DNA of 64,000 bases from Schizochytrium sp. TIO01 (lineage: Eukaryota > Sar > Bigyra > Thraustochytrida > Thraustochytriidae): assembly GCA_004764695.1 (NCBI GenBank), contig SMSO01000025.1, forward strand, positions 4,442,862 to 4,506,861, read 5' to 3'. The position numbers and the translations under genes were made by a program. Each line of letters begins with the position of its first letter. Positions within the stretch are counted from its first letter, which is position 1. This document shows, one piece after another, positions 23,177 through 61,085 of the stretch. A model generated the notes under the pieces. That model was not told where the DNA came from. It did no database searches and saw nothing but the letters and a program-made list of their open reading frames with translations.

Positions 23177-24940
23177 TTACATAACCTGCAGTTCAACGGC
23201 TGACGAAGGCACTCGGGTAGAAGAGTGGCGCGAAAGCTCCCGGGTGCGGTCATTCTCATCGCTGTGGGAAGACATGACCTTGTCTTCAGCAATGATTTCG
23301 CCAGAGTTAGATTTTTCAATCAGGGAAGGCTGAAACTTGAGTGCACGCAATGTCTCCTGCTCAAGTTTGAAAGCGCGCTTCAAGTAAATTCCAAGCGCAA
23401 CAGAACAGGCCGTACTAAAGAGCGTTGCACACAGGAAGTAAATATAAGTACCCTTGCTCTTGATCTCATCGACGTTAAAGTCCGTAAGAGAGGACTTCTC
23501 GTAGATGGCAGTCTCAATGAGGCCAAGCAAAAACGGGCCAGGGCTGGTCACAGTAAAAGCAATGGAAAGGTTCACACTGCCATCGGCAACGCCACCGGGG
23601 AAGTTTGCTGTGGAAATGACGGCCATACAACTGACAATTCCTCCGAAACCAAAACCTACAAAGCAGCATGCTAGGTAAGCACCAGGGAGAGTGGGCCAAG
23701 CGACATAAATGACGATACCTGCAAACAACAGGGCATTCCAAAGAGTGTTGACATGGGGCCAGTTGAAGTGGGCATAAATGATGGTTGAAACGAGACGCGA
23801 CAGAATAATGAGGGCCAGGAAGGTCATAGTCAGATCGAACGTGACAGCATCGGCCATGTCATCATCGACAAGATCGCCAGCAAGGTTTCCAAGAGAGTTC
23901 AAAAAGATTGAGCCAATACCATATGCAAAAAATGCAGACACGGAAGTCAGCCAAACAACCGGGCTAGTCCAGTACTCCTTGCGTGTGGGCCTGCGCTCCG
24001 TAGCATACGCAGGTGGTGGGGTGCTCGAGCGAGAGGGAATTTCGGGGGCGATGCTAGATCCAACACGAGCATGAGATTCCGATGAAAAATCTTCAAGGGT
24101 GCCACCGAGTGAGTTTTGGTGAAGATCGATCGATGTGCTTCCCGCGGCGCCAGCTTGAGTGTCGTGCAAAAGGTTGCTGCCCAAGTCCTCCTGGTACTGA
24201 TTCTGTTGTTGCGAAGTAGACTTGATGCCTTCGCTCGGGAGGACGATGGATCCAGGGACCATGGAAGGCACCGGGATGTCAGGCACCGGGAGTTCCAGAG
24301 ACGGAATTTCCTCGAATCGGTCGCGCACCATGTACTTGATACGAAAAGCAGCACATGCAATGTAGATTCCAAGAATAACAATGTAGTTGTTTGTAAGGGT
24401 GAGAGGAGTCATGCCATAGTAGAAGAGAACCACAAAAAGACAACTGCCAATACCAAGAGAGAAGGACTGAAAAGCCGTAGCCTTGCGGCGCTTGGCCTTA
24501 TCACTCGCGAAGAGGTAGTTGGTGATGGTCATACTCTGATAGAATGAGATACCCAAGCCGGCACTCCAAAGTAAGAAACCAATACACACGAGGGGCATCG
24601 ATACAGTTTCATCAGCGTTGTCAGCATGGACCACGGTACCAATCAAAAGTCCCAAACCAGCGCATACAATAATGGCACTGATAACACTCACAAGACGGTC
24701 CATCTCGCTCGGACTGAGGTTTCTGAAGTTGCTCATGTAGAACTTAGCAAAAGGATACGAGATCAGACCATAGCCAAGTTGAAGCATAACACCAGCAATC
24801 ACGACATCCGAGCTCTCGAGACCTGCAGCCTGGAGCTTAGGCGTGAGCATTGGAAACGCATAAACGATACCATTAAAGGTGCATGTGAGCGTGCATGCGA
24901 GGAAGCACGCCCATGACTCAAACCACCCCTTGCCTGTCAT
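23177..24940 (-). CDS. MFS transporter array member A1
   Basis: The protein has 587 residues from a genuine ATG and twelve predicted membrane segments (about 12-30, 46-66, 83-103, 114-136, 157-177, 183-202, 326-350, 367-390, 398-417, 421-443, 456-478, 498-520). A cytosolic loop of about 120 residues splits the two six-helix halves. The loop opens with RDRFEEIPSLELP, carries GSIVLPS at 230-236 and ends in ERRPTRKEY. A PPxY peptide (PPAY, 309-312) sits just before ERRPTR; such peptides bind WW domains of NEDD4-type ubiquitin ligases. TM7 reads SPVVWLTSVSAFFAYGIG. The TM10-TM11 signature is FPGGVADGSVNL. The tail ends SAVELQVM. The fold is MFS, with a nodulin-like/MCH1-like look; the substrate is unknown. 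It is the most 3' member of the array, and a (CTG)n tract lies just upstream of its ATG. Confidence 0.93.
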   Translation of the reverse strand: MTGKGWFESWACFLACTLTCTFNGIVYAFPMLTPKLQAAGLESSDVVIAGVMLQLGYGLISYPFAKFYMSNFRNLSPSEMDRLVSVISAIIVCAGLGLLIGTVVHADNADETVSMPLVCIGFLLWSAGLGISFYQSMTITNYLFASDKAKRRKATAFQSFSLGIGSCLFVVLFYYGMTPLTLTNNYIVILGIYIACAAFRIKYMVRDRFEEIPSLELPVPDIPVPSMVPGSIVLPSEGIKSTSQQQNQYQEDLGSNLLHDTQAGAAGSTSIDLHQNSLGGTLEDFSSESHARVGSSIAPEIPSRSSTPPPAYATERRPTRKEYWTSPVVWLTSVSAFFAYGIGSIFLNSLGNLAGDLVDDDMADAVTFDLTMTFLALIILSRLVSTIIYAHFNWPHVNTLWNALLFAGIVIYVAWPTLPGAYLACCFVGFGFGGIVSCMAVISTANFPGGVADGSVNLSIAFTVTSPGPFLLGLIETAIYEKSSLTDFNVDEIKSKGTYIYFLCATLFSTACSVALGIYLKRAFKLEQETLRALKFQPSLIEKSNSGEIIAEDKVMSSHSDENDRTRELSRHSSTRVPSSAVELQVM

Positions 24941-24951
24941 TTGGCGCCCAC

Positions 24952-24983: not shown

Positions 24984-24984
<1 letters not shown>

Positions 24985-27068: not shown

Positions 27069-28901
27069 TTACATAAATAAAAGCTCTAAAGCGGATGGCC
27101 CTGAGTCTGCAGAAGACCTACTCAATGCCCGCGATACGCGCGATGTTCCTTGGTGAGTTATGCGAGACAGTTCAATCTCCTGCTGGTCACGTGCACCATG
27201 GACAGCATGAGCTTCGTGACGAAAGTGGTCGCTCTGATGTTCTGCAAGCGCACGCAAAATATGACCTGGCTGGCTGTGTCGGCTAGAAGTCTCCCGTTCT
27301 AGTTTAAAAGATTTGTTCAGATAAACTCCAAGTGCTGCGGAGCAGGCGGTACTGAAAAAAGTGACACTTAGAAAATAAATGTAGGTGCTTATGCTTTTGA
27401 TCTCCGCCTCATTGAAATTCGTTAATGGAGATTTGGCATAGATTACCGTCATGAGAAGCAAAAGAACAAAGGGACCAAGGTTCATGAGTGAGAATGCGAC
27501 AGCCAGATTAATGGCGCTGTCCGCCACACCTCCAGGGAAACTGGTCGTAGAAATTACAGAGGTGCAGGTCATTATGCCACCGAAGCCAAAGCCGACCAAC
27601 CCTGTTGCTACATACGCCCCGGTGAGTGTTGGATAAGCAACGTATATGATGAGGCCTGCGAAGAGAAACACGTTCCAAATGGTGTTGATGTGTGCCCATT
27701 TAAAATGAGCGTAAATTATGAACACAAGAACGCGAGCAAATAGGACTAGCCCTAAAAAGGTCATAGTGAGAGAAAATGTAGTCTGGCTTACTGAGGACGC
27801 GTCTACTATTTCCTCAGCAAGGTTCCCCAGAGAGTAAAGGTAGATTGCCCCAATACCAAATGCAAAGAAACCTGACACGGTTGTTAGCCATACCACAGGA
27901 TCTTTCAAGTAGTCTAGTCGCGTTGGGCGTCGTGAAATCGTACGAATAAGCTGGTCGAGAGCCTGTGCTGTGCCACTCAATGACGTCTCATCCTCGTCAT
28001 CGTTGGTTTCACGCTCTAGCTCGATTGGTCTACTTTGCCGTGGTGAATAATCCAATGTGTTTCCTTCGAGGTCGTTGTTGACAATAACACCGCTACTTAC
28101 ATCTTCTGCATCATCAGTAAGCCGGCCCCTCTCTTCTAGTTCTGAATTATCCATAACCACAGCAGCCGAAGAAGAAGATGCAGAAGTTGCAAGTGCAAGT
28201 GAGTCACTCACAATGGATTCACCAGGAATATGTAAAGTAGGAATCTCGTCGAAACGATCTCGTACCATGTAACGAATGCGAACAGTTGAGATAAGAATAT
28301 ATATTGCAAAAAGCACCACATAAACATTGACCAAGGAAAAACTCGGAAGAGTGCAATAAAGCATCGCTGCAAAAAGACAGCTTGCAATTGCCTTCCCCAC
28401 TGACATAATTGAGACTGCCTTGCGCCGCAAACCCTTGTCCCTTGCAAAAAGAAAATTCACAATCGTTGTACTCTGAAAGAAAGAAACACCCATCCCAATA
28501 CTCCATAAAAAATGCCCCGTGCATGTGAGCGTCAGTGATAGTGGTACATGATGCTGATCGCTGTATATTAAACCCGAGATCAAGACACAAAATGCAATGC
28601 AAACTAGAAGAGTGCATGCCGCACTGACAAATCTATCGAGCGCAAAAGGGCTGAGATTTAGAACATTGCCATTGTAAAACTTTGCAAATGGATAAGAAAT
28701 CACCGCATACCCTAACTGCAGCATAACACCAACCATGACTATATCTGTGCCTTGTAATCCTGCTTCTTGAAGTTTGGGCGTGAAAATAGGAAATGCATAG
28801 ATAATGCCATTAAATGCACAAGTCAGGATACAAGCCAGATAACAGGCATGGGACTCAAATGCACCTCGCACGATGACTGAGGGATCCTCGGTGTCGAGCA
28901 T
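27069..28901 (-). CDS. MFS transporter array member A2
   Basis: The protein has 610 residues from the ATG at 28901. The frame runs 37 codons further to a GTG, but the family alignment (juxtamembrane FESHACYLAC) places the start here. It has twelve membrane segments. TM1 reads CAFNGIIYAFPIFTPKL, and TM10-TM11 carries FPGGVADSAINL, where Gly-Ser of the A consensus is replaced by Ser-Ala. The TM6-TM7 loop begins RDRFDEIPTLHIP, lacks the VLPS peptide, has an acidic stretch (NDDEDE) and ends SRRPTRLDY. Leu-Met replaces the usual pair before Gly-Pro in TM11 (SLMNLGPFV). The tail is longer than in A1, rich in His and Arg, and ends PSALELLFM, nearly identical to A3. The substrate is unknown. Confidence 0.92.
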   Translation of the reverse strand: MLDTEDPSVIVRGAFESHACYLACILTCAFNGIIYAFPIFTPKLQEAGLQGTDIVMVGVMLQLGYAVISYPFAKFYNGNVLNLSPFALDRFVSAACTLLVCIAFCVLISGLIYSDQHHVPLSLTLTCTGHFLWSIGMGVSFFQSTTIVNFLFARDKGLRRKAVSIMSVGKAIASCLFAAMLYCTLPSFSLVNVYVVLFAIYILISTVRIRYMVRDRFDEIPTLHIPGESIVSDSLALATSASSSSAAVVMDNSELEERGRLTDDAEDVSSGVIVNNDLEGNTLDYSPRQSRPIELERETNDDEDETSLSGTAQALDQLIRTISRRPTRLDYLKDPVVWLTTVSGFFAFGIGAIYLYSLGNLAEEIVDASSVSQTTFSLTMTFLGLVLFARVLVFIIYAHFKWAHINTIWNVFLFAGLIIYVAYPTLTGAYVATGLVGFGFGGIMTCTSVISTTSFPGGVADSAINLAVAFSLMNLGPFVLLLLMTVIYAKSPLTNFNEAEIKSISTYIYFLSVTFFSTACSAALGVYLNKSFKLERETSSRHSQPGHILRALAEHQSDHFRHEAHAVHGARDQQEIELSRITHQGTSRVSRALSRSSADSGPSALELLFM

Positions 28902-30542: not shown

Positions 30543-32264
30543 TTACATGAACAGAAGCTCGAGCTCGGATGGACCTGAATCAACAGATAAAGCACGCTGC
30601 GCTTGATTACGACGGGCAGACAGCTCCGCCTCTGCACGTTCAAGCTCGTCTGCTGAAAATTCCTCATCCGGAGGGGAAAGTATCAGGGATGATGTTGTGT
30701 TTCGAAGAACTCGCATGGTTTCTTGCTCGAGCTTGAACGCTTTCTTAAGATGGATGCCAAGCGCTACAGAGCTAGCAATACCTAAAAGAGTAACCCCGAA
30801 AAGGTAAATAAAAGTGCTACTGCGTGTAACATCCGAAATTCTCCAATCTGTGAGAGGGAACTTCTTGTACACGCTTGTCTGCACAAGAGCAAGAAGAAAA
30901 GGCGCCATACTGACCAATGTGAACGCAAAAGCCAGATTGATACTGCCGTCAGCAACACCCCCGGGAAAGTTGGCAGTTGATATTATTGCAGTGCAACTCA
31001 CAATGCCTCCAAAGCCGAAGCCTACGAGCGCACTGGCCCCATATGCCCCTGCTAGCGAAGGATAACACACGTAGAATATTAATCCTCCAAAAAGCATCAT
31101 GTTCCAGAGCGTGTTGATGTGCGGCCAATTATAGTGTGCATATATTACAATAACCGCAATGCGAGCGGTGATGATGAAAGCTAGGAAGGTTAAGACAAGA
31201 TAAAATGTTGTCTGATCTACTTGATCCGCTTCCACGAGCTCCTTCGCAAGGTCCCCAAGAGAATACAAAAACACGCCACCAGTGCCATAGGCAAAGAACA
31301 CGGAGACTGAAGTCAGCCATACCAATGGACTTGTAAGATAGTCCCGATGTGTAGGTCTTCTAGAAGTCATGTGGACTGGAGGTGGAGTGAATGCGCGTAA
31401 ATTCGTATTCGATGGATCTAGATCGAGAGACACGTTCGACGAAGTTTCGCTTTCTTGGTCTCTAACTAGTTCGGAGCTTGATAGCTGAGGCCAGCGTCCT
31501 GGGGTGCTCTCCTCTATGCTGGCGCCGACCTCAGCCGGTGCATCCGCACTAGACCTCCGAGGTGGTGAGATGGACGGAAGTACTGAGGACCCTGAGACAA
31601 CAAATTGTTGCGGAATTTGGAGCGTCGGAATTTCATCGAAACGGTCCCGAACCATGTAGCGAATACGAAATGTCGAGTTGAGGATTGAAATTGCAAAAAC
31701 CACAACGTAATCGTCTGCTAAAGTGAAGTATGGGAGGGTGTAGTAGAACAGGGCTGTGAAAAGACAGCTGCCGACGCCCAAACCGATTGACATAATAGAA
31801 ATGGCTTTGCGTCGCAACGCTTTGTCCTTTGCAAATAAGTAGCTCGCAATTGTTGTGCTCTGGTAGAACGAAACTCCCAATCCTAAACTAAACCAAAAAT
31901 ATCCTAGACATGTCAAAGGCAGTGAGAGGGATTCATTGTGATATTCTGCATAGCGAACGAGTCCCATAAGGAAACAAAGTGACAGGCTCACAACTAAAGT
32001 GCTCACAACGCTGACGAGGCGGTCGAGCGTAAAAGGACTGAGGTTCATGAAATTACCCATATAAAATCTCGCAAAGGGGTATGAAATGATGCCGTAACCT
32101 AGAAGCAACATAACACCGACCATAACAACCCCTGAGCTATCGAATCCTGCCTTGAGAAATTTGGGTGTGAGAATCGGAAATGCATACACAAATCCATTAA
32201 ACATACAAGTTAGAGTACATGCTAAATAGCATGCGTGTGACTCCCAGGACCCCTTGCCAATCAT
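30543..32264 (-). CDS. MFS transporter array member A3
   Basis: The protein has 573 residues from a genuine ATG only about ten residues before TM1 (GKGSWESHACYLACTLTC). It has twelve membrane segments. The cytosolic TM2-TM3 loop reads NFMNLSPFTLDRLVS, where other MFS families have motif A. The TM4-TM5 loop is FAKDKALRRKAIS. The TM6-TM7 loop starts RDRFDEIPTLQIP, has SSVLPSISP, a TPPPVH peptide where A1 has PPAY, and ends SRRPTHRDY. TM7 has a Gly-Gly variant (AYGTGGVFLYSLGDLA). The TM10 signature is FPGGVADGSINL. The tail is charged and ends PSELELLFM. A2 and A3 share the closest tail sequence, suggesting they are sister copies. Confidence 0.93.
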   Translation of the reverse strand: MIGKGSWESHACYLACTLTCMFNGFVYAFPILTPKFLKAGFDSSGVVMVGVMLLLGYGIISYPFARFYMGNFMNLSPFTLDRLVSVVSTLVVSLSLCFLMGLVRYAEYHNESLSLPLTCLGYFWFSLGLGVSFYQSTTIASYLFAKDKALRRKAISIMSIGLGVGSCLFTALFYYTLPYFTLADDYVVVFAISILNSTFRIRYMVRDRFDEIPTLQIPQQFVVSGSSVLPSISPPRRSSADAPAEVGASIEESTPGRWPQLSSSELVRDQESETSSNVSLDLDPSNTNLRAFTPPPVHMTSRRPTHRDYLTSPLVWLTSVSVFFAYGTGGVFLYSLGDLAKELVEADQVDQTTFYLVLTFLAFIITARIAVIVIYAHYNWPHINTLWNMMLFGGLIFYVCYPSLAGAYGASALVGFGFGGIVSCTAIISTANFPGGVADGSINLAFAFTLVSMAPFLLALVQTSVYKKFPLTDWRISDVTRSSTFIYLFGVTLLGIASSVALGIHLKKAFKLEQETMRVLRNTTSSLILSPPDEEFSADELERAEAELSARRNQAQRALSVDSGPSELELLFM

Positions 32265-33305: not shown

Positions 33306-35090
33306 TTACATAAACATCTTTTCTAGCGCAGATGGCTCAAGATCCGTAGTCGGTGAATTCCTTTCTCGGGAGTAGTAAGTAGAATTCATTTCTATTATCT
33401 GTTCTTGACATGATGCATCAGAAGCGGGGACTAGCTCAGGGACTGCAGGCTCGCTACGAAGCATCGATAAGCTTTCAAGTTCTAGCTTGGCAAGATGCTT
33501 CAGTTGAATGCCCAACGCAATAGAGCAGATCGTACTAAACAATGTAGCACTTAGAAAGTAAATATACGTGCTGGTACTTTTGATCTCAACCACATCGAAA
33601 CTTGAGAGAGAGGATTTTTCATAAATAACTGTCTGTATAAGACCAAGTATGAATGGGCCTGGACTGGTCACAGTGTATGCAATGGCGAGATTCATGCTCC
33701 CATCAAGAACTCCTCCTGGAAAACTGACTGTCGAAATCACAGCCATACAACTCACTATGCCTCCAAATCCGAACCCAATAAATGCAGAAGAAAGGTACGC
33801 TCCTGCTAAGCTGGGATATGCTACATAAATAACAAGACCTCCGAATAACATAGCGTTCCACATGGTATTAACATGTGGCCAATTCCAGTGCGCGTAGATA
33901 ATGGTGCCGACCAAGCGAGCAAGGATGATCATGGCCAGGAATGTCATTGTCAAATTGAAGGTTAATTTGTCAGCTTCTTCATCAGCGTTCACCAGAGCTT
34001 GTGCAAGGTTTCCTAGTGAATTCAAAAAAATTGAACCAATACCAAATGCGAAGAAGGCAGAGATTGCCGTGAGCCACACAACTGGGCTTTCCAGATACTC
34101 CTTCCGGGTTGGCCTGTGCTCGACAAATACTGGAGATTGTTGATCGCTTGTCGCGGGAGCAATAATGCCTGAGCTAATTCGAAGATGTGAATCATCGTTG
34201 TGAACAAGTCTCAGCTGATTTCCCTCAGCATTTGGCATAGGGGAGTGGATATCTCTCAGAGCAAGTTCGTTGGTCCCGTCAGACCCCGGTATTTCGAGAT
34301 CCTGGTGCCTCGAAGTCGCAAGAGAAGAAGAAGATGCAGAGGGTTCTTCTGATTCTCGTAATGTTGTATCAAGAGATGGCAAAACCAATGACCCAGGGAT
34401 CATTGAAGGCCCTGGGATCCGCAATGTTGGGATCTCTTCAAATCGATCGCGAACCATATACTTGACTCTGAGAACAGAGAACAACAAAAAGATGCAAAGA
34501 ATTGTAACGTAGTTGTTGACCAAAGACAGCGGTGTCATAGCATAGTAGAATAGGATTACAAAGGAACAACTTCCGATCCCCACAGCAAATGTCATGAAAG
34601 CAACTGCCTTACGACGGAGTGCTTTATCGCTAGCAAACAGAAAGTTGACAATTGTCATGCTTTGGTAGAATGAAAAACCTAACCCTGCGCTCCATAGGAA
34701 AAAACCAACGCAAACTAATGGCAATGAAAGAGGTGTTTGCTTATTCTCTGCGTGTACGACTGCCGCAATGAGCAAACATAGAGCTCCGCATACAATAATT
34801 GTAGTTATAATACTCACCAAACGATCCATGCCGAAAGGACTTAGATTCATGAAGTTGCTCGTATAAAATTTCGCGAATGGGTATGAGATGCTACCAAATC
34901 CGAGTTGCAACATCACACCAGCAATCACAACATCCGAGCTGTCAAGACCAGCGTCTTGCAACTTTGGAGTGAGCATTGGAAAGGCATAAATAATTCCATT
35001 AAAGGCACATGTTAATGCGCATGCCCAGAAGCATGCTTGCGATTCGAACCAGCCCTTAGCAGCATGTTCCGTATTGCTCCTACTAAACAT
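33306..35090 (-). CDS. MFS transporter array member A4
   Basis: The protein has 594 residues from a genuine ATG, with juxtamembrane AKGWFESQACFWACALTC and twelve membrane segments. It is the closest relative of A1 through the core: LSLPLVCVGFFLWSAGLG in TM4, FYYAMTPLSLVNNY at TM5-TM6, SPVVWLTAISAFFAFGIG in TM7 and FPGGVLDGSMNLAIAYTV in TM10-TM11, where Leu replaces the usual Ala. The loop has RDRFEEIPTLRIP, then GSLVLPSLD, a Ser-rich stretch and EHRPTRKEY. The tail runs through LELESLSMLRSEP and ends PSALEKMFM, the same C-terminal peptide type as A2 and A3. No frameshift is visible. The substrate is unknown. Confidence 0.93.
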   Translation of the reverse strand: MFSRSNTEHAAKGWFESQACFWACALTCAFNGIIYAFPMLTPKLQDAGLDSSDVVIAGVMLQLGFGSISYPFAKFYTSNFMNLSPFGMDRLVSIITTIIVCGALCLLIAAVVHAENKQTPLSLPLVCVGFFLWSAGLGFSFYQSMTIVNFLFASDKALRRKAVAFMTFAVGIGSCSFVILFYYAMTPLSLVNNYVTILCIFLLFSVLRVKYMVRDRFEEIPTLRIPGPSMIPGSLVLPSLDTTLRESEEPSASSSSLATSRHQDLEIPGSDGTNELALRDIHSPMPNAEGNQLRLVHNDDSHLRISSGIIAPATSDQQSPVFVEHRPTRKEYLESPVVWLTAISAFFAFGIGSIFLNSLGNLAQALVNADEEADKLTFNLTMTFLAMIILARLVGTIIYAHWNWPHVNTMWNAMLFGGLVIYVAYPSLAGAYLSSAFIGFGFGGIVSCMAVISTVSFPGGVLDGSMNLAIAYTVTSPGPFILGLIQTVIYEKSSLSSFDVVEIKSTSTYIYFLSATLFSTICSIALGIQLKHLAKLELESLSMLRSEPAVPELVPASDASCQEQIIEMNSTYYSRERNSPTTDLEPSALEKMFM

Positions 35091-36704: not shown

Positions 36705-38297
36705 TTATGGAAAAAGGTTTTGTAATTCTAGTCGATTGTGCTTTTTAAGTTGCAGTCCTAGTGCAACCGAGCATGCTAAACTAAAGAAAGTCACACTAAG
36801 AAAGAAAATGTATGTGCTAATGCTCTTGATTTCGGTGCTGTCAAAGTTGGTGAGAGGCGATTTCTCGTAGATTGCAGTCTGTATAAGACCTAACAAGAAA
36901 GGCCCGGGGCTAGTGACTGAATAAGCAATTGCAAGGTTGACACTATTGTCTGCAACACCTCCAGGAAAGCTTGCAGTGGCAATGACAGCCATGCAGCTGA
37001 CGATACCTCCAAAACCAAAGCCAACAAAAGCACTTGAGAGGTAAGCCCCGGCTAAAGTAGGGTAAGCTACGTAAATAATCAATCCAAAGAATAGCATCAC
37101 GTTCCAGATTGTATTGATATGCGGCCAATTAAAGTGAGCATAGAGTACAGTCACAACAATACGAGCCACAATTACCATAGTCAGGAAGGTCATAGTCAAA
37201 TTAAATGTGACTTTGTCTGCTGCTAGTTCGCTCTCTACCAAATCTGTTGCCAGATTTCCCAGGGAGTTGAGAAATATCGAACCAATTCCGTAGGCAAAGA
37301 ATGCAGACACAGTTGTGAGCCAAACAACAGGACTCTTTATGTAGTCCTGTCGTGTTGGGCGTCGTTCTGCAAGTACAGGGGCTTGCTGTACCTGGGATGG
37401 GGCCGTCGCATACTCGGTTTCTGAATCTACAGTTTCAAGGTCTTCGTGTGCAATCGTAGAATTTGCCTCTGCACCCCCCACAGGGTTGTCTACAAGAGCA
37501 AGGTCTCCAAGCTCGCTACTCGCTTGTCGTTGGCTCTTATAGTCGTCGACTAGGTCTGTGAGGTTCGCTTGAGCCGCCCCTGATCTTCCAGGTGAAGGTA
37601 ATACCACAGGTCCTGCTGTAACTGATGGCATGTTGATCTCAGGAAGTTCGAGAGTTGGTATATCATCATAGCGATCACGGCGCATGTACTTAATGCGAAG
37701 AACTGCAGTCGGTACATAGATTCCTAAGATGGCCACATAGTTGTTTAACAAGCTCAGTTTTGACAAACCGTAATAGAATATAATAACAAAGATGCCACTG
37801 CCGAGACCCGTCGCGAATGTCATAATGGCTACAGCTTTACGTCGAAGAGCCTTATCACTAGCAAACATGTAGTTCAAGATAGATAGGCATTGATAGTAAG
37901 TGACTGCCAACGAAGAACTCCAGATGAGATAGCAAATACAAATCACTGCAGTTGGAACCACTACACCTGTTTTCTCTGTGTAATTTGCAGCAAAAATCAG
38001 CATACCTAACGCAAGGATAACTGCAGCCGTAGTGATGATATTCACAAAACGATCTTTTGCAGAAGGTCTCATATTCCTGAAGTTACTCATGTAGAATCTT
38101 GCAAATGGATAGGAAATTATTCCATACCCAAGTTGCATCATAACACCAACAAAAACGACGTCTGAGCTCCCAAGGCCTGAGTCGTACAGCTTTGGGGTAA
38201 GCATAGGGAAAGCATATGTTACTCCATTAAAAGCACATGCGATCGCACTTGCTGTAAAGCATGCATATGCATCGAAAGAGCTCCTTGTTTGTGACAT
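36705..38297 (-). CDS. MFS transporter array member A5, tail-less
   Basis: The protein has 530 residues from a genuine ATG, with the complete twelve-helix core but almost no C-terminal tail: it stops at LELQNLFP right after TM12. Reading the other frames beyond the stop shows no lost tail motif, so a simple recent frameshift is not the cause. The juxtamembrane segment is diverged (RSSFDAYACFTASAIAC) and TM4-TM5 has a Cys (YQCLSILNYMFASDKALRRKAVA). The loop has RDRYDDIPTLELP, GPVVLPSPG and ERRPTRQDY. TM7 and TM10 are canonical for the A group (SPVVWLTTVSAFFAYGIG; FPGGVADNSVNL). Loss of the tail removes the conserved C-terminal peptide, so its targeting may differ. Confidence 0.92.
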   Translation of the reverse strand: MSQTRSSFDAYACFTASAIACAFNGVTYAFPMLTPKLYDSGLGSSDVVFVGVMMQLGYGIISYPFARFYMSNFRNMRPSAKDRFVNIITTAAVILALGMLIFAANYTEKTGVVVPTAVICICYLIWSSSLAVTYYQCLSILNYMFASDKALRRKAVAIMTFATGLGSGIFVIIFYYGLSKLSLLNNYVAILGIYVPTAVLRIKYMRRDRYDDIPTLELPEINMPSVTAGPVVLPSPGRSGAAQANLTDLVDDYKSQRQASSELGDLALVDNPVGGAEANSTIAHEDLETVDSETEYATAPSQVQQAPVLAERRPTRQDYIKSPVVWLTTVSAFFAYGIGSIFLNSLGNLATDLVESELAADKVTFNLTMTFLTMVIVARIVVTVLYAHFNWPHINTIWNVMLFFGLIIYVAYPTLAGAYLSSAFVGFGFGGIVSCMAVIATASFPGGVADNSVNLAIAYSVTSPGPFLLGLIQTAIYEKSPLTNFDSTEIKSISTYIFFLSVTFFSLACSVALGLQLKKHNRLELQNLFP

Positions 38298-47448: not shown

Positions 47449-49011
47449 TTAAATATCAATAGATCGTGGACGTGCACTTTCCTTTTCGCAGTTTGTCTCT
47501 GAAATCATTTGTGGCAACTCAGCTTGAAGAGTTTGCAAAGAAGCTATTTCGAGCTTGTAATCCTTTCGAATCTGCAATCCTAGAAACACAGAAGCAGCTG
47601 TGCTAACAAAAGATGCACATAAAAAGTAGATAAAAGAAGCTAAATATTCAAAATCATCGTCATTGAAGCCTGCCAACGAAGATTTCTCGTATACAACAGT
47701 TTCAATGGAGCCAATCAAAGTTGGCCCAAAACTCATTACAGTCACTGCCACTGACAGGTTGATGCTGTAGTACGCGACGCTCCCCGGAAAGTTCGTCGAG
47801 GCGATTACCGAAGGAGCGCTACTAACTCCACCAAATCCAAGACCAACAAGTGCAGCTGAGCAGTAAGCACCAACTAAGGTCGGTGCGCTCAAATAAACAA
47901 TAATGCCTAAGAAAAGCGTAGCATTCCACAACGTCATCACGTGTGGCCAATTCAAGTAGGCGTAGATAATTGTGGTGGTCAATCGTGCAAGAATCACGAG
48001 ACACAAGAATGACAATGTCAGATTGTATGTCACGTCATCAATCGCATCTGCTCCATCTACCAGGGAAGTGGCAAGGTTGCCTAAGGAGCTCAGATACGCT
48101 GAGCCAACACCAAAGCCAAAAAACGTAGAAATAGACGTAAGCCAAACAACCTTACTCTTGAGATAATCCATGAGCTTCGGGGCGAGGGATGTTGCTGTAG
48201 GTGCAGTTACAGATGCTGGGGTAGAGCTGCTATCAGGAGAAGAAGTCACCGCAGGATCAGGGCTCTCTTCACGTGGAAGCACAACGGAGCCAGCTTGAAC
48301 TTCTGATTGAGAAGATGCGTTTGAAGGGGATGAAAGCATAGGCGCTTCTTTGTCGTCATCAGAAAGAGGATCAAAGCGACCCCTTTCCATGTACATTAGA
48401 CGAAGTGCAGTCAGAACTGCGTAAGCACCAATCAAAATCACAAAATTGTAAGTAAGTGACAACCGTGTGAACACATAGTGAAACAGCAATGTATATCCTA
48501 CGCTACCAACACCAATCGCGAAGGCCATCGAAGCAACAGCCATACGACGGCGGCTCTTGTTAGTAGCAAAGATATAGCTGACAAGACTCAAACTATGAAA
48601 GGATGAGATGCCGAGTCCAGCGCCCCAAAGGAAGAATGCAAAGCTGAGCGCACCTCCATTCACTGTAACATCCTCGTGTAGATCTGTAGGAGCCACCACG
48701 CCAATCATGATCGCAATTGACGTCAAGACGAGAAAACACGCGAATGCATTCACAACGCGGTCCATCCATGCAGGGCTCAAGTTGAGTGCCGTGCTCGAAT
48801 AAAACCGGCCAAATGGGTATGAGATGAGTCCATAGCCCAGCTGAATTAATACACCCGTAATAACAACTTGAGCGCTATTGAACCCTGCTAGTTGCAACTT
48901 TGGTGTGAGCATTGGGAAAGCATATTGAATACCGTTCATAAGGTTCGTCAGAGTGCAGACCACTAAGCATGCGGTTGCATCCCCCAACCATTTTGACGAG
49001 CTTGCTTGCAT
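47449..49011 (-). CDS. MFS transporter array member B1
   Basis: The protein has 520 residues from the ATG at 49011 (MQASSSKW); the frame goes 18 codons further to a TTG. It is the first member of subgroup B in map order. B hallmarks are SSFHSLSLVSYIFATNKSRRRMAVASM at TM4-TM5, YTLLFHYVFTRLSLTYNFV at TM5-TM6, and SSAPSVIASTNFPGSVAYYSINL at TM10-TM11 in place of the A-type FPGGVADGS-x-NL. The loop is the shortest kind (about 80 residues), rich in Ser, Asp and Pro, contains GSVVLPREE and ends APKLMDYLKSKVVWLTS. The tail is about 35 residues, ending RPRSIDI. All twelve membrane segments are intact. Confidence 0.92.
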   Translation of the reverse strand: MQASSSKWLGDATACLVVCTLTNLMNGIQYAFPMLTPKLQLAGFNSAQVVITGVLIQLGYGLISYPFGRFYSSTALNLSPAWMDRVVNAFACFLVLTSIAIMIGVVAPTDLHEDVTVNGGALSFAFFLWGAGLGISSFHSLSLVSYIFATNKSRRRMAVASMAFAIGVGSVGYTLLFHYVFTRLSLTYNFVILIGAYAVLTALRLMYMERGRFDPLSDDDKEAPMLSSPSNASSQSEVQAGSVVLPREESPDPAVTSSPDSSSTPASVTAPTATSLAPKLMDYLKSKVVWLTSISTFFGFGVGSAYLSSLGNLATSLVDGADAIDDVTYNLTLSFLCLVILARLTTTIIYAYLNWPHVMTLWNATLFLGIIVYLSAPTLVGAYCSAALVGLGFGGVSSAPSVIASTNFPGSVAYYSINLSVAVTVMSFGPTLIGSIETVVYEKSSLAGFNDDDFEYLASFIYFLCASFVSTAASVFLGLQIRKDYKLEIASLQTLQAELPQMISETNCEKESARPRSIDI

Positions 49012-50006: not shown

Positions 50007-51806
50007 TCATCGAATTTGAAGCTCCAGCGAATGGGCATGGGTCACAGAGGCGGGGTGATCAGGAGAAGCAGTTAGTGGCGCATCTCGATCAGTTTTGTTA
50101 TCACTACTAGCACCATTGTCAGCAGAGTTAGGAGCACCGTGGCCATCTAGCATGATGGAAGTCTCGTCGGGCAGAATAACTTCTTGATGCAAAGTGGCCT
50201 GAGTCTGCATCTCAGCGGCTCGCATGGTGGACATTTCGAGTTTGTAGTCCTTGTGAATTTCATATCCCAGGAGAACTGAGCAAGCTGTGCTTACAAATGA
50301 TCCACAGAGAAAGTAAACAAAGGAACTCATATAATCAAAGTCCCGGTCGCGGAAACCTGCAAGAGATGATTTCTCGTGAATAATAGTTTCCATGTACCCA
50401 ATGAGGAATGGACCAATTGCCATGACTGACGCAGCAACAGACAGGTTTAAGCCGTAGTATGCGATGCTGCCGGGGAAATTAGTAGTCGCAATGACAGCAG
50501 GCACACTACTTACACCGCCAAAGCCAAAGCCCACAACAGCAGCTGAGAAGTACGCTCCAAGTAAGTTGGGCGTTGTCATGTAGACCAGAACTCCCACGAA
50601 GACCAAGAGGTTCCAGAGTGCCATGACGTATGGCCAATTCATATGAGCGTAGATAATTGTTGTGATGAGACGCGCCAAAATAACAAAGCACAAAAAGCAC
50701 AACGTAAGGTTGTAGGTCACAGTGTCTGCAGCTTCATCTGTACTGACCAAGGTTGCAGCAAGGTTTCCAAGAGAACTTAGATAGGTTGAGCCAACCCCAA
50801 AGCCAAAAAAGGTAGAAACGACGGTGTACCAGACGATGGGGCTGGTCACATAGTCCTTAAACTTTGGCGGCGTCGAGGAGATGTTGGCATTGGGAGGTGG
50901 CGTCGTTGGTAGAGGCTGGACGGGAGTCTGCATCGCAGTGGTCGTGACAGGCATAGCTACATCCATAATTGAGGATGATCTTCGCTCAGCTAACTCAATG
51001 GATGTGATGCCCCCCTCATTCTGGGTAAGCCGCTGCTCTTGTTCCTGCCGTTGCTGCTGCGGAGTCGTGGATACATCGTTCGGAAGAACGACCGCCCCTG
51101 AGCCGGTGGTTGGGATAACTGAGGATAGTTCAGGAAGCTCAACTGGCAGCTCTAAAACAGGCACAGACTCGAAGCGACCGCGCGCCATATACTTAAAGCG
51201 AAAGCCACCAAGAATTGCGTAGAGACCCAGAAGAATGACAAAGTTATATGTAAGGGTGGTAAGAGAGAACACGTAATGGTACATCAGTGTGTAAACAACA
51301 GCACCAATTCCGAGCGAGAAGGTCATCGAGGCAACACCCATGCGTCTCTGCCTTTTGTCTGCCGCAAAAATAAAATTAATCAAACTCAGGCTGTGAAAGG
51401 AAGAAAGGCCGAGTCCGCTTCCCCAGAGAAGGAATGCAAAGCACAATACCTTTCCGTTGATGTCCGTATTGTGCACTTCTGCTTCATGTGCCAGGCCGAC
51501 CATAAGTAGCGTGGAAATGATGACAAGGCTGAGTGCAAACGCATTACAAGCGCGATCCATGCCTAAAGGGCTTAAATTACATAAGTTACTCGGGTAGATC
51601 AGTCCGAATGGATAGCATACACTGTTGTAGCCGAGCTGGATCATAACACCCGCAAGGACAATCTGCGAGCTTGAAACGCCTTCTGCCAACAACTTGGGCG
51701 TCAACATAGGAAAGGCATACATAATTCCATTCACAAACATGGTCATGCCGCACACTGCAAAACATGCTCGTGATTCAAGCCATCCTGTCGTCGAAGCTTC
51801 CGTCAT
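50007..51806 (-). CDS. MFS transporter array member B2
   Basis: The protein has 599 residues from the ATG at 51806 (MTEASTTGWLESRACF); an upstream TTG is ignored. It has twelve membrane segments. The TM2-TM3 region is the most diverged of the array (GLIYPSNLCNLSPLGMDRACN). TM4-TM5 has SSFHSLSLINFIFAADKRQRRMGVASM, and TM10-TM11 has FPGSIAYYGLNL. The loop is long, with RFESVPVLELPVELPEL, GAVVLPNDV, a Gln-rich run (QQQRQEQEQ) and a Thr/Pro-rich end leading to PPKFKDYVTSPIVWYTVVS. The tail of about 65 residues is rich in Asp, Asn and Ser and ends HSLELQIR, almost the same peptide as B3. The substrate is unknown. Confidence 0.92.
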   Translation of the reverse strand: MTEASTTGWLESRACFAVCGMTMFVNGIMYAFPMLTPKLLAEGVSSSQIVLAGVMIQLGYNSVCYPFGLIYPSNLCNLSPLGMDRACNAFALSLVIISTLLMVGLAHEAEVHNTDINGKVLCFAFLLWGSGLGLSSFHSLSLINFIFAADKRQRRMGVASMTFSLGIGAVVYTLMYHYVFSLTTLTYNFVILLGLYAILGGFRFKYMARGRFESVPVLELPVELPELSSVIPTTGSGAVVLPNDVSTTPQQQRQEQEQRLTQNEGGITSIELAERRSSSIMDVAMPVTTTAMQTPVQPLPTTPPPNANISSTPPKFKDYVTSPIVWYTVVSTFFGFGVGSTYLSSLGNLAATLVSTDEAADTVTYNLTLCFLCFVILARLITTIIYAHMNWPYVMALWNLLVFVGVLVYMTTPNLLGAYFSAAVVGFGFGGVSSVPAVIATTNFPGSIAYYGLNLSVAASVMAIGPFLIGYMETIIHEKSSLAGFRDRDFDYMSSFVYFLCGSFVSTACSVLLGYEIHKDYKLEMSTMRAAEMQTQATLHQEVILPDETSIMLDGHGAPNSADNGASSDNKTDRDAPLTASPDHPASVTHAHSLELQIR

Positions 51807-54230: not shown

Positions 54231-55964
54231 TTACCGGATCTGAATTTCAAGGCTGGAGCTGGGCTGCGTATTATTCTGTATTGTGCCCCGAAGTGAGCTC
54301 GTCGCATTTGCTGACGTGGAGATTGCAGTTAAAGGCGGTTGCTCATCTGCGGCAAGCAGTGCTGCTTGCTCGAGCTTATACTCCTTGTTGATTTCGCGGC
54401 CTAAAAAATAGGAGCTTATTGTGCTTACACAGGAAGCACACAAGAAGTAGATAAAGGAACCAAAGTTTTCTGCCCCATCTGCATGAAATCCAGCCAAAGA
54501 AGACTTTGCATAAATCACTGTTTCTGTGTATCCAATGAGAAACGGGCCAAGACTCATAACCATTGCAACCACAGAGAGGTTAATGCTGTAGTATGCACTT
54601 GCGCCAGGAAAATTGGTCGTGGCAATTACAGCTGGGACACTGCTGATGCCACCATACCCTAGACCCACCAAAGCAGAAGAGAGGTACGCCCCAAGTAATG
54701 TCGGTTTGCTCAGGTAGACCACAACGCCAGCAAAAAGGGTGATATTCCATAAAGTAAGTACATGTGGCCAATTCATGTGAGCATAGATGACCGTGGTGAT
54801 TAATCGAGACAGGATAATTAGGCACAGAAATGCTAGAGTCAAATAGTATGTTACTGTTTCCGCCTCCTCCTCGTTCAAGTCTGATGCTAGGTTCCCCAGT
54901 GAGCTCAAATACGCAGAACCTACACCATACCCAAAAAAGATTGAGACAGACGTAAGCCAAACAACACGGCTGTATAAGTAGTCATACAAAGTTGGAGCTT
55001 GAGACGCCACTGCTCGAGCCTCCCCTTGTCCCTGGGAAATAGTCGAAGCAGATGAACCCGATGGTACTGTAGCCTGTTCTTGAGCAGTCATAGCAGATGG
55101 GTGTGATGGAGGTGTGGCAGTTAAATCTAGCGCCTCCTTTGATTGAAACGAATCTTTTGTAGATACTCTCAACGGGTGCATCCTCGCACCGACCTCACCT
55201 TCTTCCCTGACGTGGGGCCGAACAACTGCGTTTGAGCTCATCGTGCGCATGAGGGTAGGCACTTCAGGCATTTCGATCATTGGAACAGCCTCGAAGCGAC
55301 CTCGAACCATGTATACAAGTCGAGTCGCCGTGAGGATTGCATAAGCTGCAAACAGGGCAACAAAATTGTACATAAGCGACAACTTTGTCAATAAGTAGTG
55401 GTAAAGCAGTGTGTACAAGACACTGCCTATACCAAGTGCAAAGGTCATGGATGCAACTCCCATACGCCTTTGGCTTTTATCTGCAGCAAAAATAAAGTTG
55501 ACAAGGCTTAGACTGTGGAATGTTGATAAACCGAGGCCACTACCCCATACAAGAAATGCAAAGCTCAGAACTGGCCCGTTCACCTTGCGTTCGCTAGACG
55601 CCTCCGTCGGCGCAACAGTGCCGATCATTATAATGAAGGAGACGAGTACAAGTGAGCATGCAAATGCACTGACCACTCGGTCCTTCGCCGCTGAGCTCAA
55701 TTGTAAGCGTGAGCTAGAATAGAAGCGGCCAAATGGATAAGACACCAAGCCATAACCAAGTTGAATGAGTACACCGGCGATGACGACTTGTGAGCTGTCA
55801 AACCCAGCGTCTTGCAGCTTTGAGGTGAGCATTGGGAACGCGTACATTATGCCGTTCATCATCATAGTTATAGCACAAGCCACATAACAAGCTCGCAGGT
55901 CTTGCCAGCCCTGTGCGACGCCCCCATCATCTTTGTTTGAAAATCTCTCTGTAGACGACGCCAT
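54231..55964 (-). CDS. MFS transporter array member B3
   Basis: The protein has 577 residues from the ATG at 55964 (MASSTERFSNK); 28 further upstream codons begin at a TTG. The juxtamembrane segment is AQGWQDLRACYVACAITMMMNG. It has twelve membrane segments with B signatures: STFHSLSLVNFIFAADKSQRRMGVASM, YTLLYHYLLTKLSLMYNFV and GISSVPAVIATTNFPGASAYYSINL. The loop begins RFEAVPMIEMPEVP, has a modified VLP peptide (NAVVRPHV), is rich in Ser, Thr and Gln, and ends APTLYDYLYSRVVWLTS. The tail ends SSLEIQIR, matching B2. The glycine-rich TM10 reads GLGYGGI where most have GFGFGGI. The substrate is unknown. Confidence 0.92.
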   Translation of the reverse strand: MASSTERFSNKDDGGVAQGWQDLRACYVACAITMMMNGIMYAFPMLTSKLQDAGFDSSQVVIAGVLIQLGYGLVSYPFGRFYSSSRLQLSSAAKDRVVSAFACSLVLVSFIIMIGTVAPTEASSERKVNGPVLSFAFLVWGSGLGLSTFHSLSLVNFIFAADKSQRRMGVASMTFALGIGSVLYTLLYHYLLTKLSLMYNFVALFAAYAILTATRLVYMVRGRFEAVPMIEMPEVPTLMRTMSSNAVVRPHVREEGEVGARMHPLRVSTKDSFQSKEALDLTATPPSHPSAMTAQEQATVPSGSSASTISQGQGEARAVASQAPTLYDYLYSRVVWLTSVSIFFGYGVGSAYLSSLGNLASDLNEEEAETVTYYLTLAFLCLIILSRLITTVIYAHMNWPHVLTLWNITLFAGVVVYLSKPTLLGAYLSSALVGLGYGGISSVPAVIATTNFPGASAYYSINLSVVAMVMSLGPFLIGYTETVIYAKSSLAGFHADGAENFGSFIYFLCASCVSTISSYFLGREINKEYKLEQAALLAADEQPPLTAISTSANATSSLRGTIQNNTQPSSSLEIQIR

Positions 55965-56772: not shown

Positions 56773-58524
56773 TCATGCAACGTGCATAGGTAATGGGGTC
56801 GAACTATGTGGGATTTGCTGCAAAGAAGTTCGTGTCTGCTGCAGCTCGACCGTTTGGCGCTGCTGGAGCCTTTCCGAGGCAGTCTCTTTGGCAATTTCTC
56901 GACCAAGGAGCAAGGACGAAACCGTACTAATCATGGAACCACATGCAAAATAAAAGAATGAGCTCATGTCAGCATCGTTGAGCTCTGAAAGTACAGAGGT
57001 CTCGTAAATTATCGTCTCAAGGTATCCCACAAGAAATGGGCCAACACGCATCACTGTTGCAGTAAGTGCGAGATTCATACTGTATGAAGAAACGTGTCCA
57101 GGGAAATTACTCGTCACAAGAACTGTCGGACTACTGCAAAGTCCTCCATATCCGAAGCCAACGAGAGATGCTGAAAGATATGCATTTCCTAGAGATGGTT
57201 TGGCAACATACATGATTACCCCTGTAAAGAGGAAGACATTCCAAATTGCAATAACGTACGCCCAGTTCAGCTGAGCGTACACAAATGTTACAACTAGGCG
57301 AGAAAAGACTACCATACTTAGAAAAGCGAGCGTGCAGCGGAATATCACTGTGTCCACTTCAGCGTCATCTTTGTCCTCAACCAAAGTATAAGCAAGGGTC
57401 CCTATGGAATTTAAAAAGGTCACACCCACACCAAAACCAAACATTGTAGAAATGAAGGTCAGCCAAACAATACGATTGAAAATATAATCCTGAATCGTTG
57501 GACCAGGTGGATGGGTCGATATTCCAGAATATACCGACGTATCAAGGCCAGAGGCATCCTGCGATCCATTGAGGTGGTTCCGAGAAGACAAATCAGGGTT
57601 TGCACTCGATAAACTTGGCGCAGAATCTGGTCCTTGCTCCTCGGACACATCTGTGCTACTGTGAACCCCGTCACTACCCGTCGCCATGTCACGAAGGCGA
57701 CCATCGGTATCTGACATTTCAGGTGCAGCAATGGTAGGTGGTTCACTCTGGTCTAAATACTCTCCCTGCGGATACGTTGAGGACCTTGAGGAGTCTGATG
57801 GCAGGATAGATGGAAGGTCAAGAACTGGAACTGCTTCGAAGCGGCCCCGCACCATATATTTGAAGCGAAATGCTGCCAACACAATGTAAGCAGCAAGTAG
57901 CAAGCCGATGTTTGCTGTGAGCGAGAACTCGTCGAAGAAGTTATGATACAACAAGGTGTAGAAAACAGCTCCCAATGCAGCGGAAAACCCCATCGATGCT
58001 ACGCCCATCCGCCTTTGACTTCGGTCTGATGCAAAAATAAAGTTCACAATACTCAAGCTATGGTATTGCGAAAGACCCAGACCACTGCCCCAAACGGTGA
58101 AAGCAAATGTCAAGGCATCACCTCCACTGATGCCTGGACCGCTCCAATTCGATGATGAACCTGTCGATGTCGACCCAGATTCATCTTGCATGCTGGACAA
58201 TATCACAATCATGAGAAGCAGACCGCCCGCAATAATTGAAGATGAAAGCGCCGTTATTGCACGGTCCATGCCTACGGTACTTAAATTAAGAAACGAGCTA
58301 GAGTAGAAATGACCAAATGGAAAGGACACCAGTCCAAATCCCAGTTGAATGCAGACGCCAGCCAAAATGATCTGTGAGCGGTCGAAACCAGCATCTTGAA
58401 ACTTTGACGTGAACATGGGGAAGGCATACATGAGCCCTACCATTCCACTCGTTAGTGCGCACGCAAGGTAACACGCTCGAGACTCAAGCCAGCCCTGCGC
58501 TACAGCGCCATCCTCCCCGCTCAT
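56773..58524 (-). CDS. MFS transporter array member B4, most diverged B copy
   Basis: The protein has 583 residues from a genuine ATG, with AQGWLESRACYLACALTSGMVG at TM1 and twelve membrane segments. The TM3-TM4 loop, which should face outside, is enlarged and Ser/Gly-rich and carries an N-W-S glycosylation sequon. TM5-TM6 is unusual: AALGAVFYTLLYHNFFDEFSLTANIG lacks the YHYV and YNFV words of its sisters. TM10-TM11 reads SSPTVLVTSNFPGHVSSYSMNL, where His-Val-Ser-Ser replaces Ser-Ile-Ala-Tyr. The loop has RFEAVPVLDLPSILPSD and about 110 acidic, Ser-rich residues, ending GPTIQDYIFNRIVWLTF. The tail is short, Gln-rich and lacks the common C-terminal peptide (ends PLPMHVA). It may have a different specificity. 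Confidence 0.92.
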   Translation of the reverse strand: MSGEDGAVAQGWLESRACYLACALTSGMVGLMYAFPMFTSKFQDAGFDRSQIILAGVCIQLGFGLVSFPFGHFYSSSFLNLSTVGMDRAITALSSSIIAGGLLLMIVILSSMQDESGSTSTGSSSNWSGPGISGGDALTFAFTVWGSGLGLSQYHSLSIVNFIFASDRSQRRMGVASMGFSAALGAVFYTLLYHNFFDEFSLTANIGLLLAAYIVLAAFRFKYMVRGRFEAVPVLDLPSILPSDSSRSSTYPQGEYLDQSEPPTIAAPEMSDTDGRLRDMATGSDGVHSSTDVSEEQGPDSAPSLSSANPDLSSRNHLNGSQDASGLDTSVYSGISTHPPGPTIQDYIFNRIVWLTFISTMFGFGVGVTFLNSIGTLAYTLVEDKDDAEVDTVIFRCTLAFLSMVVFSRLVVTFVYAQLNWAYVIAIWNVFLFTGVIMYVAKPSLGNAYLSASLVGFGYGGLCSSPTVLVTSNFPGHVSSYSMNLALTATVMRVGPFLVGYLETIIYETSVLSELNDADMSSFFYFACGSMISTVSSLLLGREIAKETASERLQQRQTVELQQTRTSLQQIPHSSTPLPMHVA

Positions 58525-59219: not shown

Positions 59220-61085
59220 TCAGGTAATTTGGAGGACTCGCCTAGGCAAGGATGGTGGAGACGAAGAGGAGCCGTGGGACCGACTTTCATCGTTTCGAGA
59301 AGCCTCTCCAAAGATACTATCTTCTGGTTGTGAGTGAGTATCACCCTCCGAAACTTCGACGAGATCAGTTAGGTGGTCTTTTTGGATCTCTCTCCCAAGT
59401 AAAAACGAGCATGCTGTGCTTACGAAAGATCCACATAGAAAATAGATAAATGTACTAAAGTTCTCAAAGTCCTCGTCATTAAAGCCTGCCAAAGATGACT
59501 TTTCGTAAATGACAGTTTCGAGATATCCAATAAGAAAAGGTCCAACACGCATGACAGTCGTTGTGACTGCAAGGTTCATTCCATAGTAGGCAATACTTCC
59601 AGGGAAGTTGCTTGTGCAAATAACAGCCGGACTGCTGCTAAGACCTCCAAAGCCAAGCCCAACTAGGGATGCTGACATATATGCACCGATCAAGGTCGGC
59701 TTAGCCGTATATACTAAAATTCCTACAAAGAGAAGCACATTCCATACTGTCATTACGTACGGCCAATTTAAGTGCGCATAGATGATTGTTGTAATGAGAC
59801 GCGAAAGAATAATGAAGCATAGAAAGGCCAAGGTTAAGTAGTATGTGACAAGCTCGACCTGGACTTCACCCTCTACCAATGTACCTGCAAGATTACCCAA
59901 TGAACTAAGGTAGGTGGAACCGACGCCGAAACCAAAAAAGGTAGATACGGATGTGAGCCATACAATGCGACTTGAAACATAGTCATGAAATGTTGGAGCC
60001 CTCTGTGCACTAGCAACAATCGGGCGGGAGCGTGTGGAGGAGTTGACATTATATCCTTCAGTGGTGTGCTCCTCGCGTCCACTTGAATCCCCTGAATTTG
60101 ACTCGTCATACGCAAAACTTGTTGAGCTACTTTCTGCTGGAGAATGCGCCGATGCGGTTGCCGCGGCTGCTGACACGGTATGGGCTTGGTGCGACTGATT
60201 CGCAAGGGAATCTCCTGGAAACACGCTGGAGAGTCGTGAGGTCGTACTGGATGCGCTTGAGGTGCTTCCTGAACGAAGAATAGAAGGTAATTGTGGGAGT
60301 TCAAGGGAGGGGGGCTCCTCAAAGCGGCCTCTTACCATATACTTAATTCTAAAGCCCGTAAGGACAAGATATCCACCAAGCAGAACAACAAAGTTATACA
60401 TGAGCGAGAGGTAAATAAGGGCATAGTGGTAGATGAGCGTGTAGATCACGGCACCAATTCCAAGAGCAAACGCCATAGAGGCAACTGCCATTCTTCGCTG
60501 AGCCTTGTCTGCAGCAAAGATGAAGTTGACGAGGCTAAGACTATGGAACTGCGAAAGCCCAAGCGCACAACCCATCATCATGAATGCAAAGCTGAGAAGT
60601 TGAGCGTTAACCGCATCACCTGTCTCTTCTGCACGTGCAGTTGCTGCAATCATAATCAGGAGACACACAATCATAAGTGAGCAAGCAAGAATATTCATTG
60701 CGCGGTCCATAGCGGCCGGCCCAAGGCTGAAAACTGAGTTTGAGTATACGTGTCCAAATGGAAATGCCACAAGTCCAAAACCGAGCTGGATCAAGACGCC
60801 TGCAATGACGACCTCTGAGCTGCTCAGGCCTGCGTTGAGCAACTTGGGCGTTAGCATGGGAAACGCATACATGATCCCATTTGTCGCACTCGTCGTCGCA
60901 CAAGTTACATAGCACGCTCTAGATTTGGCCCATCCCTGATTTTCTCGCCCTGCTGCCAAGCCTTCGACTTCCTCTGCCTCTCGGCCTTCTCCGAAGTCTC
61001 TTCTGTCATTATTGGCGCTCTCCAAGGTGGCATCTGCACTTGCATCTGCGGAAGCATTTCTCGCCATCCTCGCCATCCCCGCCAT
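59220..61085 (-). CDS. MFS transporter array member B5
   Basis: The protein has 621 residues from the ATG at 61085 (MAGMARMARNAS); in-frame ATGs also lie 3 and 6 codons downstream. It has the longest N-terminus of the family, about 55 cytosolic residues rich in Ala, Glu, Asp and Asn, before NQGWAKSRACYVTC. Twelve membrane segments. B signatures: LSQFHSLSLVNFIFAADKAQRRMAVASM, YTLIYHYALIYLSLMYNFV, and LSSSPAVICTSNFPGSIAYYGMNL. The Gln in SQFHS (QYHS in B4) and the phrase AVTTTVMRVGPFLIGYLETVIYE link B5 to B4. The loop is long and Ser/Thr-rich, begins RFEEPPSLELPQLPSIL and ends APTFHDYVSSRIVWLTS. The acidic tail ends RRVLQIT. It is the 5'-most array member, with no further copy in the 2.9 kb beyond. 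Confidence 0.92.
   Translation of the reverse strand: MAGMARMARNASADASADATLESANNDRRDFGEGREAEEVEGLAAGRENQGWAKSRACYVTCATTSATNGIMYAFPMLTPKLLNAGLSSSEVVIAGVLIQLGFGLVAFPFGHVYSNSVFSLGPAAMDRAMNILACSLMIVCLLIMIAATARAEETGDAVNAQLLSFAFMMMGCALGLSQFHSLSLVNFIFAADKAQRRMAVASMAFALGIGAVIYTLIYHYALIYLSLMYNFVVLLGGYLVLTGFRIKYMVRGRFEEPPSLELPQLPSILRSGSTSSASSTTSRLSSVFPGDSLANQSHQAHTVSAAAATASAHSPAESSSTSFAYDESNSGDSSGREEHTTEGYNVNSSTRSRPIVASAQRAPTFHDYVSSRIVWLTSVSTFFGFGVGSTYLSSLGNLAGTLVEGEVQVELVTYYLTLAFLCFIILSRLITTIIYAHLNWPYVMTVWNVLLFVGILVYTAKPTLIGAYMSASLVGLGFGGLSSSPAVICTSNFPGSIAYYGMNLAVTTTVMRVGPFLIGYLETVIYEKSSLAGFNDEDFENFSTFIYFLCGSFVSTACSFLLGREIQKDHLTDLVEVSEGDTHSQPEDSIFGEASRNDESRSHGSSSSPPSLPRRVLQIT

Follow-up and report, generated by a model that had tools for sequence, protein, structure and literature searches.

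An old tandem array of twelve divergent major facilitator superfamily transporter genes in Schizochytrium sp. TIO01

We describe an array of twelve intact genes of one family of the major facilitator superfamily (MFS), which lie next to one another on the minus strand at positions 23177..61085 of a 64,000-nucleotide stretch of the Schizochytrium sp. TIO01 genome (hereafter the window; C24:4442862-4506861 of a 64.06-Mb assembly in 37 contigs; GC content of the window 45.1%). The copies are old, are under purifying selection and have not been homogenised, and two genome searches placed the family at this one location. The proteins have the MFS fold and lack motif A between transmembrane helices (TM) 2 and 3, and residues at a set of helix positions separate g1-g7 (block A) from g8-g12 (clade B). 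With confidence that falls somewhat short of even, we favour the reading that this is a divergent family related to the SLC16, OxlT and NFD4/nodulin-like transporters, which diversified in place and would handle small carboxylates or amino-acid-like solutes, perhaps by uptake rather than export and possibly with different substrates for different copies.

Layout, age and location of the array

All twelve open reading frames (ORFs) are present on the minus strand and each has one stop codon, the terminal one, in agreement with the first-pass annotation of this DNA, which had described twelve intact, full-length coding regions on one strand. The listed ORFs span 526-647 amino acids and, counted from their mechanical starts, occupy 20,913 of 37,924 bases; the eleven spacers between them measure 695-2615 bases each. 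The listed start is TTG in g8, g9, g10 and g12 and GTG in g2, and in these five the first in-frame ATG lies 5-37 codons inside the listed frame; taken from this ATG, g12 ends exactly at 61085, as in the first-pass annotation. They form a tandem array, in which paralogues follow one another on the same strand and no other gene was found between them. The features are as follows.

23177..24940, minus strand: g1, MFS-family protein of 587 amino acids, block A; open frame, MFS_1 39.7 bits against a cut-off of 33.4, structure model
23795..23797, minus strand: codon of R382 of g1 (TM8); every other invariant charged residue is within five residues of a helix end in the model
23975..24301, minus strand: variable TM6-TM7 loop of g1, residues 214-322; pLDDT below 50 at residues 210-316
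27069..28901, minus strand: g2, block A; first ATG 37 codons inside the GTG frame (29012), MFS_1 25.5 bits (below cut-off), sister of g3 (100/99)
30543..32264, minus strand: g3, 573 amino acids, block A; open frame, core alignment, tree (sister of g2)
33306..35090, minus strand: g4, 594 amino acids, block A; open frame, core alignment, genome-search query
36705..38297, minus strand: g5, 530 amino acids, block A; open frame, core alignment, MFS_1 39.4 bits (above cut-off)
39906..41486, minus strand: g6, 526 amino acids, block A, with the shortest C-terminal tail; open frame, core alignment, grouped with g7 (94/100)
44102..45727, minus strand: g7, 541 amino acids, block A; open frame, core alignment, tree (with g6)
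47449..49011, minus strand: g8, clade B; first ATG 18 codons inside the TTG frame (49065), clade B support 99/100
50007..51806, minus strand: g9, clade B; first ATG 10 codons inside the TTG frame (51836), tree
54231..55964, minus strand: g10, clade B; first ATG 28 codons inside the TTG frame (56048), NFD4_C 29.1 bits against a cut-off of 27, structure model, genome-search query
56773..58524, minus strand: g11, 583 amino acids, clade B; TM11 arginine at residue 466 (g1 numbering), sister of g12 (97/94)
59220..61085, minus strand: g12, clade B; first ATG 5 codons inside the TTG frame (61100), TM11 arginine as in g11

The common alignable core of the twelve proteins has 441 gap-free columns, of which 59 are invariant, and pairwise amino-acid identity over these columns ranges from 0.34 to 0.72. 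It exceeds 0.5 in 26 of 66 pairs, and in these the fourfold-site identity was 0.21-0.38, against 0.24-0.27 expected from composition alone; the highest value (0.38) belongs to g11-g12, and dS, the synonymous divergence, was undefined by NG86 in 58 of the 66 pairs. No two array genes have an exact run of more than 19 bases in common, and similarity between spacers was not found at E<=1e-3. Because of this divergence, near chance at fourfold sites, we regard the copies as old and not homogenised, which argues against both a dosage array and an assembly artefact. It is true that twelve tandem genes of the same family on one strand are what recent near-identical copies, or haplotypes joined end to end, would give. 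However, recent amplification is refuted by the divergence, the window contains no N characters, and the array lies inside a 5.8-Mb contig, not at its edge, so that we consider this explanation scarcely credible. The first-pass annotation had proposed selection for dosage or for diversified transport; the first does not agree with these values and 'diversified' fits better. The array thus looks like long-kept diversification in place rather than extra dosage.

In the tree, clade B was recovered with support of 99/100, as were the pairs g2 and g3 (100/99), g11 and g12 (97/94) and g6 and g7 (94/100). Block A, which appeared in 16% of the 200 bootstrap trees, was unsupported as a clade; both outgroups sit on very long branches. 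Across the array as a whole, protein distance grows with gene spacing (Mantel r 0.47, p 0.004); this correlation is absent within A (r 0.09, p 0.35) and within B (r 0.03, p 0.45), and the closest pair, g1 and g4 (72% protein identity), are not neighbours. Growth neighbour by neighbour is therefore unsupported, and the data fit a history of tandem duplication with later rearrangement or loss.

The genome was searched with g4 for block A and g10 for clade B; only the best candidates were scored, and very distant members may escape. At E<=10, the g4 search gave 16 stretches, 15 of them on the twelve array genes and the remaining one on a nodulin-like gene at C24:832 kb (22% identity, E 0.027), and all 14 stretches of the g10 search fell within the twelve array genes. 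The PF06813 (Nodulin-like) family was found in two places in the genome, C24:831 kb and C35:565 kb (L024:2259-3944 and L025:2173-3918), and g4 is 15% and 17% identical to these two proteins. Eleven MFS proteins of the genome were scored with the array profile as well, namely nine scored MFS_1 loci of 112 candidates and the two nodulin-like proteins; the nearest was the nodulin-like protein at C24:831 kb (19.2 bits), and the next scored 4.0. As for relatives in viral and prokaryotic contigs, pattern searching gave 88 and 20 stretches, respectively, of which none was confirmed.

Fold and affinities of the family

In the models of g1 and g10, the helices are assigned to 12 TM segments, arranged as two six-helix bundles and joined by a low-confidence TM6-TM7 loop, which is 58-113 amino acids long across the twelve. 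These modelled bundles assign the family to the MFS, and the description of one MFS family with a 12-TM core and a long TM6-TM7 loop, given in the first reading, holds. General profiles barely reach the family. Pfam MFS_1 scored above 33.4 bits in two of the twelve (g1 and g5) and at E<=0.1 in six, PF06813 matched none of the twelve at E<=0.1, and NFD4_C (PF23262) matched g10 alone, barely above its cut-off. Beyond MFS_1 and NFD4_C, Pfam gave only weak unrelated matches, to DUF4271 (three members) and DUF7269 (one). Matches to ASF1 chains (E 0.51), to a viral surface-protein chain (E 0.0088 over 74 residues) and, in one member each, to models of YiaA (E 0.0004), Grx4, YgaH and MgtS were dismissed as chance.

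Motif A (GxxxDxxG[RPK]) was found between TM2 and TM3 in none of the twelve, as expected from the earlier remark that this stretch differs from the classical motif. The strict form is present in the nodulin-like protein at C24:831 kb and absent from the one at C35:565 kb, and both have a GR....D-type stretch in their second half. Since an accepted nodulin-like protein also lacks the strict form, its absence is not diagnostic and does not exclude the superfamily. We take the TM2-TM3 signature of most ApiAT transporters to be this same motif.

For both models the first Foldseek ranks go to entries that, by their names, we take to be SfMCT, a bacterial carrier of the SLC16-like kind, with OxlT, the oxalate:formate antiporter of the OFA family, also near (VIA rank 2 for g1 and 1 for g10). 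The nodulin-like look that the first-pass annotation had reported is therefore upheld in part: the nearest gene elsewhere in the genome is Nodulin-like/NFD4 and the nearest folds are SfMCT and OxlT, whereas PF06813 is missing throughout and NFD4_C is confined to one member. The resemblance to SLC16/SfMCT extends to the 12 TM, the long TM6-TM7 loop and a TM8 arginine of uncertain register, but there is no sequence-level match.

The TM8 arginine, the A/B split and alternative readings

Eight charged positions are invariant (K35, D81, R82, R151, R152, R200, R206 and R382). R382 in TM8, present in all twelve, is the only one of them that the g1 model does not place within five residues of a helix end. 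In SfMCT, R280 of TM8 is reported to bind the lactate carboxylate, its loss abolishing transport, and a TM8 arginine to be kept in most SLC16 proteins (PMC6573034); R272 of TM8 is the reported oxalate-binding residue of OxlT (PMC10070484). A nodulin-like protein of the genome aligns with OxlT across the TM8 arginine stretch, and in two hhalign runs R382 was paired with the nodulin/OxlT arginine (77% and 17%). It is thus plausible, judging from these alignments, that R382 corresponds to the carboxylate-binding arginine of SLC16 and OxlT. Under the reading that we favour, the two six-helix bundles would work by alternating access, the solute would be a small carboxylate or amino-acid-like, and R382 would anchor its carboxylate. 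The TM1 tyrosine Tyr35 of OxlT is also kept in all twelve proteins in the MAFFT alignment.

Several observations weigh against this reading. Both hmmsearch and MAFFT offset R382 by four to five residues from the nodulin/OxlT arginine, which makes the TM8 register uncertain; if theirs is right, the anchor argument fails. In the MAFFT alignment, Lys355 and Asn268 of OxlT are kept in none of the twelve and Tyr124 and Gln34 in one each; the Lys355 column holds Thr, Met, Val or Ser, so that the Arg272-Lys355 pair of OxlT is not found, and the Asp and Arg of both A-like motifs are not kept. The match to nodulin-like proteins and OxlT lies mainly in the C-terminal half, the N-terminal half not being significant (probability 0.7%), and the array profile matched none of the transporter sequences in the PDB. 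Folds within the MFS closely resemble one another. The scores of SLC37A4, SotB, FLVCR, VMAT and LAT4 differ from that of OxlT by no more than about 3 Z units for g1 and 5 for g10, and with g1 SLC37A4 even scores above OxlT (37.8). FLVCR chains make up three of the ten best Foldseek rows for g1. The g1 and g10 models were both built from the same twelve sequences.

At seven positions (g1 numbering: 65, 99, 126, 135, 169, 174 and 520), A and B are each fixed for a different residue; 500 random 7/5 splits gave 0.016 such positions on average and at most 7. In 61 alignment columns the two groups have disjoint residue sets. By the g1-model assignment, all seven lie in helices, five in TM2, TM4 and TM5 and two in TM3 and TM12. 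The cavity-lining helices of SfMCT, as named in PMC6573034, include TM2, TM4 and TM5 and not TM3 or TM12. The A/B differences at cavity-lining helices would set differing substrate preferences. The MAFFT column of OxlT Tyr124 in TM4, which by this alignment probably corresponds to SfMCT Tyr119, holds Phe in six members of A, Tyr in g5 and Ser, Thr or Gln in B, so that most of the array would differ there from SfMCT as well; two residues further on, A has Gln and B has His. Residue 466 in TM11, one residue from the column of OxlT Lys355, is Arg in g11 and g12, Ser in eight others, Asn in one and Ala in one.

The most far-reaching reading that we consider, though an unlikely one, is a previously unnamed MFS family without motif A, confined to one locus, in which each of the twelve old paralogues would be tuned to a different small carboxylate or amino-acid-like solute, giving a palette of substrates at a single place; g11 and g12, with their additional TM11 arginine, would be predicted to prefer more acidic substrates. 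Slightly less likely is that the proteins belong to an SLC43/ApiAT-like family that facilitates the transport of neutral or aromatic amino acids and whose expansion, like that in apicomplexans, would serve to cover the range of amino acids. The LAT4 fold is very close and ApiATs are a multi-copy protist family, most members of which carry an MFS signature between TM2 and TM3 (PMC6386423). The array lacks this signature, although the pattern also misses one accepted nodulin-like protein; in addition, the array profile gave no LAT4 sequence match, and SfMCT and OxlT outrank LAT4 by E-value.

Export of products or toxic organic compounds, that is, drug or metabolite efflux, has in its favour VIA matches that include SotB (rank 4 for g1 and rank 2 for g10) and VMATs with both models and MdfA with g1. 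We consider it improbable: no enzyme gene was found inside the array, and the Pfam matches beyond MFS_1 and NFD4_C are confined to the weak unrelated ones given above. More doubtful still is a quaternary-amine or betaine role, in which glycine betaine, choline or a reductase substrate would be imported or exported in connection with an enzyme to the right of the array. This enzyme, a nonribosomal peptide synthetase (NRPS)-like A-T-R1-R2 protein of 1289 amino acids, lies outside the window at 64098-67967 in window numbering (L022:3460-7329 (+)), starts 3 kb past g12 and is divergently oriented from it; its domains follow the order AMP-binding, carrier, thioester reductase, short-chain dehydrogenase. 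An ATRR with this layout has been reported as a fungal glycine betaine reductase (PMC11050029), and the FLVCR1/2 chains among the g1 rows contain bound choline, with FLVCR2 at VIA rank 3. However, the proposal draws on a single neighbour, the twelve genes have no common upstream motif, and FLVCR is absent from the top 10 Foldseek rows for g10. A choline site deduced from the FLVCR matches was set aside; the TM1 tyrosine occurs in OxlT and both nodulin-like proteins as well.

Protist tandem transporter arrays of this size are already known. The T. brucei AAT7 tandem locus has 11 amino-acid-transporter copies according to Table 1 of PMC1810246, and the same source describes concerted evolution and transposed loci among trypanosomatid amino-acid-transporter loci. 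AAT7 is thus similar in holding about a dozen same-family transporter genes, but it belongs to another transporter family; the present array stands out by its old divergence, by its single location and by belonging to a family that general profiles barely reach. None of the titles and abstract openings listed in our literature search on the array family, its relatives and thraustochytrid transporters describes the array, most subscription papers being outside that search. Old copies kept together without spreading or homogenisation provide a clear example of diversification in place. Should the copies differ in substrate, they would be a naturally occurring set in which specificity could be read from sequence for an SLC16/OxlT-like fold, and they would help to show what the organism takes up. 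The array would also matter for lipid-producing thraustochytrid strains.

Spacers and neighbouring genes

The earlier statement that no other convincing gene lies among the twelve stands after Pfam, codon-score and protein searches of the spacers. The 12 distinct spacer ORFs (10 between array genes and two right of g12) gave no Pfam match at 0.001 or 0.01. Their codon scores, from a table trained on the same array genes, were at most 11.2, and the array genes scored about 0.12-0.17 per codon across 500-650 codons. In the unmasked window, every array protein matched all 12 loci and nothing outside them; in the masked window, the 12 proteins gave no match at E<=1 and 20 chance-like stretches at E 1.2-8.1. 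Gene remnants or hidden genes in the spacers were therefore rejected, none having been found by any of these searches. Two GC-rich spacers were also considered as mobile elements, using a repeat-copy search that skips simple repeats and very common words, and both were rejected: 51900-54150 had no other match, and 24984-26984 had 41 other stretches, all inside query bases 675-728, where there is a TCTT repeat. No promoter motif common to the twelve genes emerged: in the 400 bases upstream, even the most frequent 6- to 10-mers stayed within the maxima of 100 Markov-simulated sets. Within the longest spacer, at 42876-43142 of the window, there is a tandem repeat with 76- and 41-base units made of TCTTAAACCCCATTCAG-like words.

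To the left, the array is adjoined by a gene at 18327-22106 for a 1259-amino-acid protein with C-terminal EF-hand matches, and a tRNA-Asp (GTC) gene lies between the two at 22415-22486. Further left, 11864-12859 and 5190-6017 gave matches to the electron transfer flavoprotein alpha subunit and to Hemingway/CFAP97. Just left of the window, a 718-amino-acid ORF at L023:6577-8733 (-) has a weak match to the Plavaka transposase (27.0 bits against 26.3).

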